Shown here piece by piece: positions 40,178-45,695 of a DNA stretch of 64,000 nt. Source of the stretch: Erythrobacteraceae bacterium (GTDB lineage: Bacteria; Pseudomonadota; Alphaproteobacteria; Sphingomonadales; Sphingomonadaceae); the NCBI GenBank assembly GCA_024642525.1, contig JAHEAX010000007.1, forward strand, positions 1-64,000, given 5' to 3'. The notes below the pieces were generated by a model. That model saw only the letters and a list, made by a program, of their open reading frames with translations, was not told where the DNA came from and did not search any database. A program made the translations under genes and the position numbers. Each line of letters begins with the position of its first letter. The stretch's first letter is position 1.

Positions 40178-41215
40178 TCAGCCCTGCGCTGTCACTTTTG
40201 CGCGCTGGTCTGGCATACCCATGGATGCCAGCAGACCGCTTGCATCCTGAAATTTGCGGAAATCATCCTTGTTGGCCATCGCGTGCCAGTTGCCGAGGAT
40301 GAGCGATTGCGCCACCGCACCGCCGAGCGTGGTGCCAGGACCAGTTATGATGAAGATGTCCGGCGCAAATTCGCGCGCAGACACTTCGATGGCGCGGGTG
40401 AAATCATAGGTCTGTGTAACCTGGGCGCCCAGCGTATAATCCCACAGGGCCTGCGTATCAGACGCATGGGGCCACCAGATCGCGCCGCGCCCGTCCACCA
40501 TGGGCAGGTCCGGCTGCCTGAATAGCGCAGGCGCAAGGCGCGCGCGGCCTTTGTCCGATACAGGCTGCTGCATCGCTGTGTGGAATGCGGCGTGATTGCC
40601 CAGCCGCATGGGGAAGCGGCCATCCAGCGGTTCTGCCTCCACTTCAAATGCGGCAAGCCCGGCCTCGTTACCGGCCAGCACCAGCATCCCGCCAAGGTTG
40701 ATCGACAGGTGCAAGATATGCCCCTTGCGCGTGCCGATTTCGTCCACCATCGCCAGCAGCCGGGCGCGGCGGGCCGGGTTTGCGGACCAGTCATCGCCCA
40801 GGAACGGATAGACCAGCTGGCCGCCAATGAGGGCTTCCTGCATCAGTGTCCCCATGGTGTTGGCCACGGTGAAACCGTCTTCGGGCGACAAGGCGCCTGC
40901 GCAGGCAAGCGCGGAATACCAGCCCATCGAATTGCCGGTAACCGCCACGACATCAATCGCACTGCGATCAATCGACAGGAAATCACCCAGCGTGGCAGCG
41001 TAGATAAGGCCCGATGCATTGTCACCGCGGGTGTGCTTGGCAAGAGAGAACCGGTCTGCACCATCGAGCGCGGACAGGGTTTCCTGCCCCTGCTTTTTCC
41101 GTTCTGCATCAAACGCGCGGAGCAAAGCTGCATCAGGGAAATTGCGCGCCAGATAGCCCAGCTCTGTCTTGTTATAGGTGCCCCGGCCGGGGCAGATGAC
41201 GACTGCTGTGGTCAT
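40178..41215 (-). CDS. Free-standing FabD-like ACP S-malonyltransferase/acyltransferase
   Basis: AVVICPGRGTYNKTE; nucleophile GNSMGWYSALACAGAL; FIITGPGTTLGG. Confidence 0.75.
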   Translation of the reverse strand: MTTAVVICPGRGTYNKTELGYLARNFPDAALLRAFDAERKKQGQETLSALDGADRFSLAKHTRGDNASGLIYAATLGDFLSIDRSAIDVVAVTGNSMGWYSALACAGALSPEDGFTVANTMGTLMQEALIGGQLVYPFLGDDWSANPARRARLLAMVDEIGTRKGHILHLSINLGGMLVLAGNEAGLAAFEVEAEPLDGRFPMRLGNHAAFHTAMQQPVSDKGRARLAPALFRQPDLPMVDGRGAIWWPHASDTQALWDYTLGAQVTQTYDFTRAIEVSAREFAPDIFIITGPGTTLGGAVAQSLILGNWHAMANKDDFRKFQDASGLLASMGMPDQRAKVTAQG

Positions 41216-43413
41216 GATTTGCCCCCCAGCAATGCTGTGGCGGCGGTCATGATTTCATCCACGCTAGGCATGGTCACTGCATAGGCAGGGCCGGTGGGAA
41301 TGAAACTGTCCTGCGCGCTGACGCGGGCTAGGCCGCGCCCTTCAGCCACGGCGTCATTTTCCGTATAAATGGTCATCAAGGCATCGGCCAGGCCGCCGGT
41401 GCGGCGGGTTTCATCCACGATCAAAATGTTGCGGCAGCCGCTGGTTGCATCCAGCATGGCCGCTTCGGGCAAGGGTGACAGCCAGTTCAGGTCAATGACG
41501 CGGGCGTTGATGCCCTGCGCCCCAAGGCGTTTTTGCGCCTGAAGTGACAGATGGATGCCATTGGCAACGCTGACGATGGCAAGGTCTTCGCCGGTCCCAT
41601 GGGTTGTCACTTCGCCAAAGGCGATCCGCTCGCCCGGTTCGGGGTAGGTGCCAATCCAGCCATTATCGCCCGGCTCGTGAAGATCGCGCATCGGGTAAAG
41701 GGCAATGGGTTCGAGGAAGACCACCAGCCGTTGTTCTTCGCGTGCCAGCCGCACACATTCGCGCAGGATCCGCGCAGCATCTGGCCCGTTGGACGGGCAC
41801 GCAAGGATAAGGCCGGGAATATCGCGCAGCACAGCCACAGAATTATCGTTGTGGAAATGCCCGCCAAACCCCTTCTGATAGCCAAGTCCGGCAATCCGCA
41901 GCACCATCGGGTTGGTATATTGCCCGTTGGAAAAGAACGGCAAAGTCGCCCCTTCGCCGCGCAGCTGGTCTTCGGCATTGTGCAGATAGGCGAGAAACTG
42001 GATTTCCGGCATCGGCAGGAAACCGTTCTGCGCCATGCCAAGGCCAAGGCCGAGAATGGATTGTTCGTCCAGCAGCGTGTCGATCACCCGCGCCCTGCCA
42101 AACCGGGCGGACAGCTTCTGCGTCACCCCGTAAACCCCGCCCTTGCGGCCAATATCCTCGCCCATCATGGCGATTTCGGGGTGCGCCAGCATCAGGTCTG
42201 TCAGCGCCCAGTTGATGAGGCGGGACATGATCTGCGGCTGTTCCATCGCCTTCATGTCGCCGCCAAAGGCTGCCGCGCGGCTCTGCTGCGATGGGCCATT
42301 GCTGGGCTGGCATTCCCGCCGCGGCGGAATGATACTGGCCATGACCTGTGATGCTGTTTCCAGCCTCGGGCGGGTGATTGCTTGGCGCGAAATGCGCTGC
42401 ACGCGGTCAAATGTGCGGTTGTATATGTCCAGCGCTTCTTCAGCGGGCAGCGCGCCCGCCTGTTCCAGCAGCCGTACCGAATGCAGCAGCGGATCATGCG
42501 CTTCTTCGGCTTCTACTTCTGCTTTTGAAAGGTAAGTGGTCGGCACATCGGCCCCGGCGTGGCCATAAAGGCGGATGGTCCCGATATGGAGAAAAGCGGG
42601 CTTGCGCCGCCTGCGGACAAATTCTGCCGCTTGGGCAGCGACCTTGTAGGTTTCGTACATATCGAGGCCGTCGCAATGGAAATATTCAAGCCCGGGACGG
42701 CCGGTAAAACTGGCGGCAATCCAGCCGGTAGGTGTCTTGGTGGAAATGCCGATGCCATTGTCTTCGCAGACAAGCAGCAGCGGCATCGGCACCTTCTGAT
42801 AGGCTGTCCAGCAGGCAGTGTTGATTGCGCCCTGGGCCGTGGAATGGTTGGCAGAAGCATCGCCGAAGGAACACATGATGATGGCATCGTCCGGCAGCGC
42901 CTTGTGCTCAGGCGGCTGACGTTTTGCGAGCCCGATGGAATAGGCTGCGCCAACAGCCTTGGGCAGATGGCTGGCGATGGTCGATGTTTGCGGCGGGATA
43001 TTCAGCGCCTTTGACCCAAGCACCTTGTGGCGGCCGCCCGAAATCGGGTCTTCCGAAGAACAGGCGAAAGACAGCAGCATATCCCAAGCGATGGTCTGCC
43101 CTGGAACCTGCTCTGCCCGCTGGATCTGGAATGCGGCATCTCGGTAATGGAGGAAGGCCATGTCTGTCGGCTTCAAGGCCGCCGCGACCGCAGCCATGCC
43201 TTCATGGCCTGACGAACCAATGGTGTAGAAACCCTGTCCGGCAGCCTGCATGGCGCGGCTGGTTCGGTCCAGCGCGCGCGTCAGGCAGGCAGAACGATAG
43301 ATCGAAACCGCTGTTTCGGGCGTCAGCGGGCCGGACGGTGCCTTGCCCGCAGGAAGGTCACCCGATGCCACGCGGCGCAGGAAATTCTCATGTACGATTG
43401 CAGCGCGATCCAT
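41212..43413 (-). CDS. Thiamine-diphosphate 2-oxoacid dehydrogenase E1, fused alpha-beta
   Basis: GQGFYTIGSSGHEGMAAVAAAL, MCSFGDASANHSTAQGAINTA...ICEDNGIGIST-like (E1alpha); PEIAMMGEDIGRKGGVYGVTQKL, FLPMPEIQFLAYLHNAEDQLRGEGA (E1beta); start ATG at 43413. Confidence 0.9.
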   Translation of the reverse strand: MDRAAIVHENFLRRVASGDLPAGKAPSGPLTPETAVSIYRSACLTRALDRTSRAMQAAGQGFYTIGSSGHEGMAAVAAALKPTDMAFLHYRDAAFQIQRAEQVPGQTIAWDMLLSFACSSEDPISGGRHKVLGSKALNIPPQTSTIASHLPKAVGAAYSIGLAKRQPPEHKALPDDAIIMCSFGDASANHSTAQGAINTACWTAYQKVPMPLLLVCEDNGIGISTKTPTGWIAASFTGRPGLEYFHCDGLDMYETYKVAAQAAEFVRRRRKPAFLHIGTIRLYGHAGADVPTTYLSKAEVEAEEAHDPLLHSVRLLEQAGALPAEEALDIYNRTFDRVQRISRQAITRPRLETASQVMASIIPPRRECQPSNGPSQQSRAAAFGGDMKAMEQPQIMSRLINWALTDLMLAHPEIAMMGEDIGRKGGVYGVTQKLSARFGRARVIDTLLDEQSILGLGLGMAQNGFLPMPEIQFLAYLHNAEDQLRGEGATLPFFSNGQYTNPMVLRIAGLGYQKGFGGHFHNDNSVAVLRDIPGLILACPSNGPDAARILRECVRLAREEQRLVVFLEPIALYPMRDLHEPGDNGWIGTYPEPGERIAFGEVTTHGTGEDLAIVSVANGIHLSLQAQKRLGAQGINARVIDLNWLSPLPEAAMLDATSGCRNILIVDETRRTGGLADALMTIYTENDAVAEGRGLARVSAQDSFIPTGPAYAVTMPSVDEIMTAATALLGGKS

Positions 43414-43479: not shown

Positions 43480-45426
43480 TCAGGCCGGAACGGTAATTCT
43501 TTTGCCGCTGAAAACGGCCTGCCAGTTCTGGATTTCGGAAAACACCACTTCGTCAGAGGCATGGATCAGTTCCGAGACGTGGCGATAGTTGAGGCGGCTT
43601 TCCGGCGCGTTCTGAAGCAGCTTGATCCTGTCTGCCACCACGCCCAGTTTTTCCGCCGCCACTTCGGAGATGGACGCGAAACGTTCAAAATCGCCAAAAT
43701 AGCGGATGCCCGCCAGCGCGCCGCCCAGGGTGGGCAGGGCCACGCCCAGCACGGTGAAAATCTTGGCGGCCTTGGCCACCCAGCCGCCCTCGATCACGCC
43801 GATGGCATCCATCGCCACCAGCGCAAGATAAACTGCCACCGAAAAGACAGCGGCGATGAACAGCAGCCCGGAAAGATGGTCCAGCCCTTCATGCACACGG
43901 TTGAGTTGCAGGGCCTTGCGCCGGTGATAATCGCGCTGGGGCACAACGTGCCTGTCGCGCAAAATGGCCAGCGCATCGCGCAAATAGGGTTTCCCGACCC
44001 TGGCTGCGGGCAGGCCGACTGCACGGACACTGTGGCGGGCATACCATTCAGGCCAGTAACTCTTGGTGCCGCGCGGCCACGATCCCGATGGGCGGGCAAC
44101 GCCCATCGCCAGCAGCAGCGGGCTATGGCGCAGATATTCAGCGGCGCGCCGCGTTTCGAACCACCTGCCATGCAGCCGTTCGCGCGTGCCGTGGATGGTG
44201 ATGAGGATAATCAGCAGCAGCAGAATGAATTCTGCCGTGGCAAACAGCCATTTCTGGTTGGTATCGACCAGCGGCAAATAGAGAATGCCCGCGATGATGG
44301 CGAAGGACCCGAGCAGGAAATTGACCGTCATGCCCGAACGGTATCGGTCTGACAGATGCGCGGATATGCCATCGGCCCATGCAAAGCGGCGCAATACATC
44401 AGTGCCGATGCGGTGCGACAAGTCAGGATCGCCGCCGGGCAGGGCATCAATCGCAGACAGCAGCGGCGCGGCGGAACCTGCGGCAATGGCATCGGGGTGT
44501 TCGTAAGTCTGGGTGATGCGGCCAAACCGCTTTGCCAGCCCTTTGCCGCCGAACAGGGCTTCTACGCGCCGGAATGCATGGGCGGTGCGGCTGCTGTGGT
44601 CGCGCCATGTCGCTGCATTGAGTGCGGCAGGGCCGATGTGGCGACCCGTCATGCGCGAAGGTTCAGGCAAGACAGCATCGCGTACGATGGCATCCAGCCA
44701 TTGAAGGTTTTCTTCCATCTCTGTCAGCCCGCCACATTCGGCGAGGGCTTCGGGTGCCTGCAGGATGCGCCAGTCAGCAGGATCGGCAGGGCGAATCCAC
44801 AGGACCGGCGCCCCGAGTTCCAGCGCAACAGAGATGGTGTGGCCAGTGCCGCCAATGTCTGCTGCCGATTGCCCATCCCATACGGCAATCACCAAGTCGC
44901 TTTGTTCGATCAATATCCGGCCCGCCAATGCGGAGCGTGCGCTGGCATCAAGGGAGAATGTTTTTTGCGCCAGCAAGTCGGTTTCGCGGTCAATCGCGGC
45001 AAGGAAAGCGGCCTCTATCTGGTCGTCCTCGTCCTCCATCTCGAACAGGCGGGCCTTTGCTGCAAGTTTGCTTATGGCGTCGACCCGAGCGGCAACCGCG
45101 CTGTCGGCAGGCGGTGTGCCGGCAAGCACGCAGCGGGCATCGGCCGGGGACATCGGGCGGGCGTTGATGGCGGAATTGAGCGCCTGTCCGAAAGGCAGGG
45201 GGATCACCAGTTCCCAGCCGCGGTCCAGCGCCATATGCGCTGCGGCCTGGTCCGTTCCGTCAGACGCCAGCGTGTGCAGGCGGGTGGTTTCCAGCGCGCA
45301 ATCGGCAAAACCGGCACCGCAGCGGGCAATGGTTGTATCGATCCGGTCGAACAAGACGCGCAGCTGATCCTCTATTTCAGAACTGTCTGCCGGATAGGAC
45401 GGGTGGCCAGCACGGTGGCCTGTCAC
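43480..45426 (-). CDS. Large protein: SLOG-like nucleotide-sensor N-terminus plus SLATT/DUF4231-like C-terminal TM module (called GTG start probably truncates it; see findings)
   Basis: LHTLASDGTDQAAAHMALDRGWELVIPLPF resembles SLOG folds; two TM segments followed by HGRWFETRRAAEYLRHSPLLLAMG; second TM pair near the C-terminus. Confidence 0.65.
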   Translation of the reverse strand: MTGHRAGHPSYPADSSEIEDQLRVLFDRIDTTIARCGAGFADCALETTRLHTLASDGTDQAAAHMALDRGWELVIPLPFGQALNSAINARPMSPADARCVLAGTPPADSAVAARVDAISKLAAKARLFEMEDEDDQIEAAFLAAIDRETDLLAQKTFSLDASARSALAGRILIEQSDLVIAVWDGQSAADIGGTGHTISVALELGAPVLWIRPADPADWRILQAPEALAECGGLTEMEENLQWLDAIVRDAVLPEPSRMTGRHIGPAALNAATWRDHSSRTAHAFRRVEALFGGKGLAKRFGRITQTYEHPDAIAAGSAAPLLSAIDALPGGDPDLSHRIGTDVLRRFAWADGISAHLSDRYRSGMTVNFLLGSFAIIAGILYLPLVDTNQKWLFATAEFILLLLIILITIHGTRERLHGRWFETRRAAEYLRHSPLLLAMGVARPSGSWPRGTKSYWPEWYARHSVRAVGLPAARVGKPYLRDALAILRDRHVVPQRDYHRRKALQLNRVHEGLDHLSGLLFIAAVFSVAVYLALVAMDAIGVIEGGWVAKAAKIFTVLGVALPTLGGALAGIRYFGDFERFASISEVAAEKLGVVADRIKLLQNAPESRLNYRHVSELIHASDEVVFSEIQNWQAVFSGKRITVPA

Positions 45427-45695
45427 CCCGATGGAAAAGCGCGGGCGAGGCAGTGGTTCGGCAGCGGGGCGTAATCCGTCGTCTGCGGATTTCTGCGGAT
45501 CGGTCAGGATAAGGCCCCCTCATACCACTGCATCTGCATTGCGCCCTCCGCCAGGGACGGGCGCTTGCCTTTCCTTTCTAGCGAAGATTTCCGGCTTGGC
45601 GAATGAATATCGGCCAGCGCGCTGCGCAGCCATAAAATACGCCCGAATGACATGGCTGCTTGGGATTTTGCGATTGGGCTGGTAGGCGCGCGCCC

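Follow-up and report, generated by a model that had tools for sequence, protein, structure and literature searches.

In type I Thoeris systems, the TIR protein ThsB is partnered with ThsA, an effector of SIR2-SLOG architecture whose SLOG domain binds 3'cADPR (PMC11204291). Another form of ThsA, the TM-macro effector, joins a nucleotide sensor to transmembrane (TM) segments, for which nucleotide-induced clustering in the membrane has been proposed (PMC11204291). TIR genes are also found beside genes for 2TM SLATT proteins, in neighbourhoods described by the Aravind group, and the SLATT protein is predicted to be an effector, a pore gated by an ADPr derivative (PMC9503650; PMC7159879). TIR signalling to caspase-like immunity has been cited as well (PMC12799240). 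Among other SLOG proteins, the YpsA-like YpsA, ShosA and DprA are soluble, and the eukaryotic six-TM channel TRPM2, which is gated by ADP-ribose, carries a SLOG-type N-terminal domain. The papers cited here support the logic of the mechanism set out below, not the SLOG-SLATT protein itself.

The window, a stretch of 64,000 nucleotides from an Erythrobacteraceae bacterium, encodes a putative SLOG-SLATT-SLATT fusion protein that resembles each of these systems in part. As in type I Thoeris, a TIR gene is linked to a SLOG-sensor protein, and some of the TIR neighbours found in relatives match ThsB_TIR (PF08937). However, SLATT modules take the place of SIR2, the SLOG domain is N-terminal, and the partners are large TIR-TPR or TIR-AAA-TPR proteins, none of which is adjacent in the window. 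The protein belongs to neither of the two types by which a Thoeris effector is recognized (SIR2-SLOG or TM-macro), and the Pfam, NCBIfam and PADLOC profiles matched neither a SIR2 nor a macro domain in it. It shares with the TM-macro effector the coupling of a nucleotide sensor to TM segments, but the sensor is SLOG instead of macro and the TM segments number four. The TIR and 2TM SLATT neighbourhoods offer the same juxtaposition of TIR and SLATT; here, by contrast, a SLOG domain and two SLATT pairs occur in one protein, and a subset of loci includes an ion-channel partner. With the soluble YpsA-like proteins the fold and the loop motifs are shared, whereas the window protein joins this domain to a membrane part. 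TRPM2 likewise couples a sensor to a membrane channel, but its likeness, a weak fold match, is confined to the SLOG domain and does not extend to demonstrated homology of the TM parts.

The gene lies on the minus strand, as do all of its features given below, and its frame (43480-45507) encodes 675 aa from a CTG codon at 45505-45507, or 648 aa if read from GTG 45426. An earlier reading made from the sequence alone had reported the 648-aa frame, an in-frame FSIGVTGHR upstream of it and an end coordinate of 45507; the first two are present as described, and the coordinate is correct because the likely start is the CTG codon. Upstream of the GTG the frame remains open until TGA 45520-45522, which adds GGLILTDPQKSADDGLRPAAEPLPRPRFSIG ahead of VTGHR, and no ATG, GTG or TTG occurs between this stop and the GTG inside GVTGHR. 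Since GTG 45426 is the V codon of that motif, initiation there would delete the first Rossmann β strand. Translation therefore probably starts at the CTG, which follows the Shine-Dalgarno (SD)-like sequence GAGGGGG (45515-45521) at a spacing of 7 nt, so that the candidate start region spans 45505-45521. In four genus members the CTG-AC(C/T) start is conserved and the SD-like sequence is clear in three; the CTG-AC start is shared by G003, G005 and G002. Orthologues are 52-84% identical, and comparison with the nearest of them (G003) indicates purifying selection (dN 0.109, dS 0.809, dN/dS about 0.13), the SLATT part, at 0.07, being more constrained than the SLOG part. The downstream neighbour (window 41212-43413) reads as a fused E1-alpha/E1-beta 2-oxoacid dehydrogenase and adjoins the gene in five genus members.

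The N-terminal half had been taken for a SLOG domain, and structure prediction agrees. AlphaFold2 modelled residues 18-285 (five sequences) with a pLDDT of 85.9 and a pTM of 0.85, and the predicted Rossmann domain covers residues 18-280 (44668-45456). When this model was compared with the PDB by Foldseek, the top match was YpsA (2nx2, E=3.5e-5, probability 1.00), with DprA and ShosA next; a Moco-binding protein and TM1055 were also near the top, and the weaker matches included TRPM2 and TRPM5 (probability about 0.3-0.6). The predicted domain thus has a Rossmannoid fold with YpsA, DprA and LOG proteins as nearest structures, and conserved polar residues in its putative nucleotide-binding loops. 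The GVTGHR motif (residues 27-32; 45412-45429), in the loop after strand 1, is part of the A1 consensus and invariant in A2. In an alignment of 54 homologues, D86 of the DGTD motif (residues 83-86; 45250-45261) is invariant and G84 is conserved in at least 90%. The predicted ligand-loop motif D-x5-WDG ... GGTGHT (residues 204-224; 44836-44898) contains invariant D204, G219 and G220, with W210, D211, G212 and T221 conserved in at least 90%. These residues of the three loop segments (G84 and D86, D204 with WDG 210-212, and GGT 219-221), as well as P105, are invariant or near-invariant and located in the expected loops. The Pfam and NCBIfam SLOG profiles gave no match to the window protein, which thus falls short of their curated cut-offs. 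Among the 54 homologues, a profile scan recovered the SLOG families YAcAr (nine), DprA (four) and YpsA (two), with best E-values of 0.0027 for YAcAr and 1e-4 for DprA. A PDB sequence search with the protein or its profile yielded nothing significant; the profile weakly matched 7m5h, a nucleoside 2-deoxyribosyltransferase (E=0.023).

The C-terminal half contains four hydrophobic segments in the hydropathy profile (residues 395-413, 420-438, 548-566 and 583-601), arranged in two putative SLATT modules. The first TM pair is SLATT_3/DUF4231-like (residues 375-461; 44125-44385; Pfam DUF4231 8e-4, SLATT_3 E about 1e-3 to 0.011), and DUF4231 is matched in 51 of the 54 homologues, at best with 2.5e-6. 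The second pair is SLATT_1-like (residues 524-664; 43516-43938; NCBIfam SLATT_1 5e-7). A two-TM module matching a SLATT profile is therefore present, although no single match of the window protein passes the curated Pfam or NCBIfam cut-offs (29.7 of 41 bits for SLATT_1, 20.2 of 24.7 for DUF4231). The two pairs resemble different SLATT families, and an hhalign comparison detected no homology between them, so an internal duplication was dropped as an explanation. A full-length AlphaFold model (five sequences) reached a pLDDT of 54, with low confidence in the TM half, and its Foldseek list is usable for SLOG matches only. PADLOC gave no significant match, and a LeoA match at 0.015 was taken as chance. 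The domain matches nevertheless exceed chance. Structure prediction, fold search and family profiles all support the fusion of a putative SLOG sensor to SLATT membrane modules that the sequence-only reading proposed, with the correction that two SLATT-like pairs are present, not one.

Homologues (E<=1e-3) occur in 73 of the 301 genomes of the family, a count that includes about four fragmentary or weak matches. All six genomes of the genus carry the gene, but it is not a core gene of all relatives, the distribution that had been named as speaking against an effector role. A close subfamily (42-84% identity) is present in 32 genomes and a distant one shares about 25-32% identity. Outside the family, a phylum sample contained relatives in nine other genomes; matches also came from three plasmid records but from no phage record. 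At G081:C3:756175-756258, a 28-aa stretch shares 75% identity with the protein's highly conserved C-terminus and is possibly the remnant of a lost copy.

The surroundings of the gene in relatives were compared by fetching 53 family loci in addition to the window, calling their genes and clustering them. In 33 of these 54 loci a TIR gene is found no more than 8 kb away, where genome-wide TIR counts predict about 0.9 such loci, and the figure is 35 of 62 when distant loci are added. TIR genes are widespread in the family (166/301 genomes). TIR_2 genes occur in 72 of the 73 homologue-bearing genomes compared with 94 of the 228 others (Fisher p=1.9e-21, counts uncorrected for phylogeny). The TIR-adjacent label switches 13 times across the tree. 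The commonest TIR neighbours are proteins of about 650 aa with an N-terminal TIR_2 domain and TPRs, some with a TM-like segment between them. Trypsin-type proteases, some of which carry additional N-terminal regions, also recur as neighbours, as do two caspase-type proteins, and many of these protease neighbours have signal-peptide-like starts. The neighbours of distant homologues are conflict-type genes too. Some distant-subfamily loci encode TIR-TPR proteins matching ThsB_TIR, such as the ThsB-like neighbour at L143. L138 has SIR2-TIR and nSTAND1 neighbours, the former being a SIR2-TIR fusion and not a plain TIR protein. L139 (5171-10427) combines a patatin phospholipase, which matches a PADLOC effector, with a RyR-domain protein; similar genes occur at L142 (3327-8598) and a similar patatin at L141 (3833-9260). 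At L146 (7825-15163), a distant homologue adjoins a 1669-aa WD40 protein, the N-terminus of which we take to be DUF4062-like. DUF4062 is a TIR-like NADase family (PMC13174449).

The most specific association found is with a small ion channel. This protein of about 142-156 aa matches Ion_trans_2 and is potassium-channel-like, and the filter SYTTLGIGD is constant in the aligned copies. Its gene is present in 21 of the 301 genomes, 20 of which also carry the SLOG-SLATT gene (hypergeometric p=9e-13, phylogeny uncorrected). In 16 cases the two genes directly adjoin each other, and at L030, L031, L062 and L066 their stop and start overlap by 4 bp. Relatives of the G126 and G150 type have TIR, channel and SLOG-SLATT genes in one intact cluster. 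About 50 of the 73 homologue-bearing genomes have no channel gene.

The arrangement in the window's genome is split. Its only TIR_2 gene (contig C57, 111383-114910) encodes a 1176-aa protein with TIR, AAA_16 and TPR domains, and its only channel gene (C57, 106041-106460) lies about 5 kb away, beside a thiolase-like gene that also flanks the channel in close relatives (e.g., L062 and L066). This type of TIR protein is rare, occurring in 7 of the 301 genomes, and six of the seven carriers have the SLOG-SLATT gene. In the TIR protein of the window's genome, one stretch could be taken for a degenerate cyclase, with no profile match. Within C57 (L151, G000:C57, 10033-18911), the channel gene stands in one block with genes for an FAD oxidoreductase, an amine oxidase, a polyprenyl synthetase and the genome's sole TIR protein. 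At L032 and L085, the SLOG-SLATT gene directly adjoins a homologous TIR block made up of FAD oxidoreductase, amine oxidase, polyprenyl synthetase and TIR genes. Polyprenyl or FAD oxidoreductase genes flank homologues at L066 and L091, and an FAD oxidoreductase gene does so at L068, L069 and L092; terpenoid-type genes thus recur near SLOG-SLATT homologues and in the C57 block.

Five of the six genus members have no adjacent partner. None of the five has a TIR gene beside the SLOG-SLATT gene, and the tree groups them as a single clade that is nested within TIR-adjacent relatives. The c1-type TIR, trypsin and caspase, considered as partners in the window's genome, are absent there. In G002, G004 and G005, a common-type TIR gene is retained at another locus (L127, L128 and L129), with genes for caspase-DUF7379, CHAT and nSTAND1 proteins as neighbours (domains as read from L127), and these loci are candidates for a conflict cluster of their own. 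The search for a channel gene found none in G004 and G005, both of which lack an adjacent partner. Because C57 carries the channel gene and the genome's single TIR gene close together, by the channel's usual neighbour, it is simplest to suppose that the effector gene relocated and its partners stayed, and it appears displaced. The gene had been described as standalone, without an obvious cyclase partner. This holds locally in the window, but relatives keep TIR and channel genes beside it, and the window's genome has one copy of each on C57. A TIR enzyme, not a plain cyclase, is the partner.

The best explanation places the protein in a Thoeris-like TIR system as its SLOG-SLATT arm, a nucleotide-gated effector of the inner membrane, a reading to which we assign a probability of about 0.55. 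A TIR-domain protein would make an ADP-ribose product derived from NAD+, the most likely ligand, and the cytosolic SLOG head would bind that nucleotide. Binding would cause clustering or opening of the SLATT part with its four TM segments, and the resulting permeabilization of the membrane would halt or kill the stressed or infected cell. In some lineages, the small Ion_trans_2 channel, encoded alongside with overlapping stop and start codons, may act together with the effector. In the window's clade the effector gene would have been displaced from its partners, which in this genome lie together on C57 and would act in trans. The domain anatomy, the purifying selection, the co-occurrence and adjacency of TIR and channel genes, and the split arrangement are what the analysis shows; we infer the ligand, the pore, the action in trans and the role in defence. 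Against the reading stand the position of the gene between housekeeping-type genes and its presence in all six genus members, as expected of a core gene. The missing adjacent partner in five of these six, the lack of a channel gene in G004 and G005 and of a caspase or trypsin partner in the window's genome, the absence of phage matches and the low model confidence in the TM half also count against it, as do the frequency of TIR genes in the family and the uncorrected co-occurrence counts. A bolder and rather unlikely version is that the SLOG-SLATT protein and the small potassium-channel-like protein together form a TIR-signalled, nucleotide-gated channel, a split bacterial analogue of TRPM2 in defence, whose effector has become unlinked from the signal maker in one clade.

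Other readings weigh the same observations differently. The SLOG-SLATT protein might mainly be the ligand-binding subunit of the small channel, with the nucleotide gating ion flux (membrane potential, K+), and would then be a split prokaryotic counterpart of TRPM2 without a pore of its own. The near-confinement of the channel to gene-bearing genomes, the adjacent and overlapping genes, and TRPM2 and TRPM5 among the weaker fold matches favour this idea, which is nevertheless unlikely: SLATT has its own TM segments, and the many homologue-bearing genomes without a channel gene mean that the channel cannot be obligatory. A catalytic SLOG domain, processing nucleotides or nucleosides in the manner of LOG, with the membrane part serving only as an anchor, is very improbable. 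Some SLOG proteins are indeed enzymes (PMC9503650) and there is the weak 7m5h profile match, but the best fold match is YpsA-like, from a sensor-type clade, and conservation is higher in the SLATT part than in the SLOG part.

Two further explanations were considered. The presence of the gene in all six genus genomes, strong purifying selection and housekeeping-type flanking genes would suit a non-immune protein of membrane stress or envelope signalling, which would monitor nucleotide state in these alphaproteobacteria as a chromosomal housekeeping sensor, and the signal-peptide-like protease neighbours and the TM segment of some TIR neighbours suggest envelope sensing. The patchy occurrence in the family and the conflict-type neighbours (TIR, caspase, trypsin, SIR2-TIR, nSTAND1 and patatin) make this doubtful. 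The window copy may instead be an orphan of a lost system, answering another signal or retained by drift, as the lack of a local partner and the absence of the c1-type TIR, trypsin and caspase from the genome would allow. With selection at dN/dS 0.13, all SLOG motifs intact, and TIR and channel genes kept elsewhere in the genome, such an origin is decidedly unlikely.

SLOG, SLATT and TIR are known conflict domains whose linkage has already been predicted, and the system is not categorically new. In the literature searched, which left the 2015 SLATT-defining paper outside its scope, the tandem SLATT-SLOG fusion, the near-exclusive channel partner and the split arrangement were not found, and the fusion may have been described earlier. 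No experiment on SLATT as a nucleotide-gated pore was found in the same literature, and the overlapping genes would allow a test of that prediction. The Thoeris-like reading unites a predicted TIR signal maker, SLOG sensor and SLATT membrane effector in a single system open to test, which it supplements with a dedicated ion-channel partner that is found almost only in genomes with the SLOG-SLATT gene. It also suggests that a TIR system can be split over two loci, an arrangement that defence searches based on adjacency would miss.
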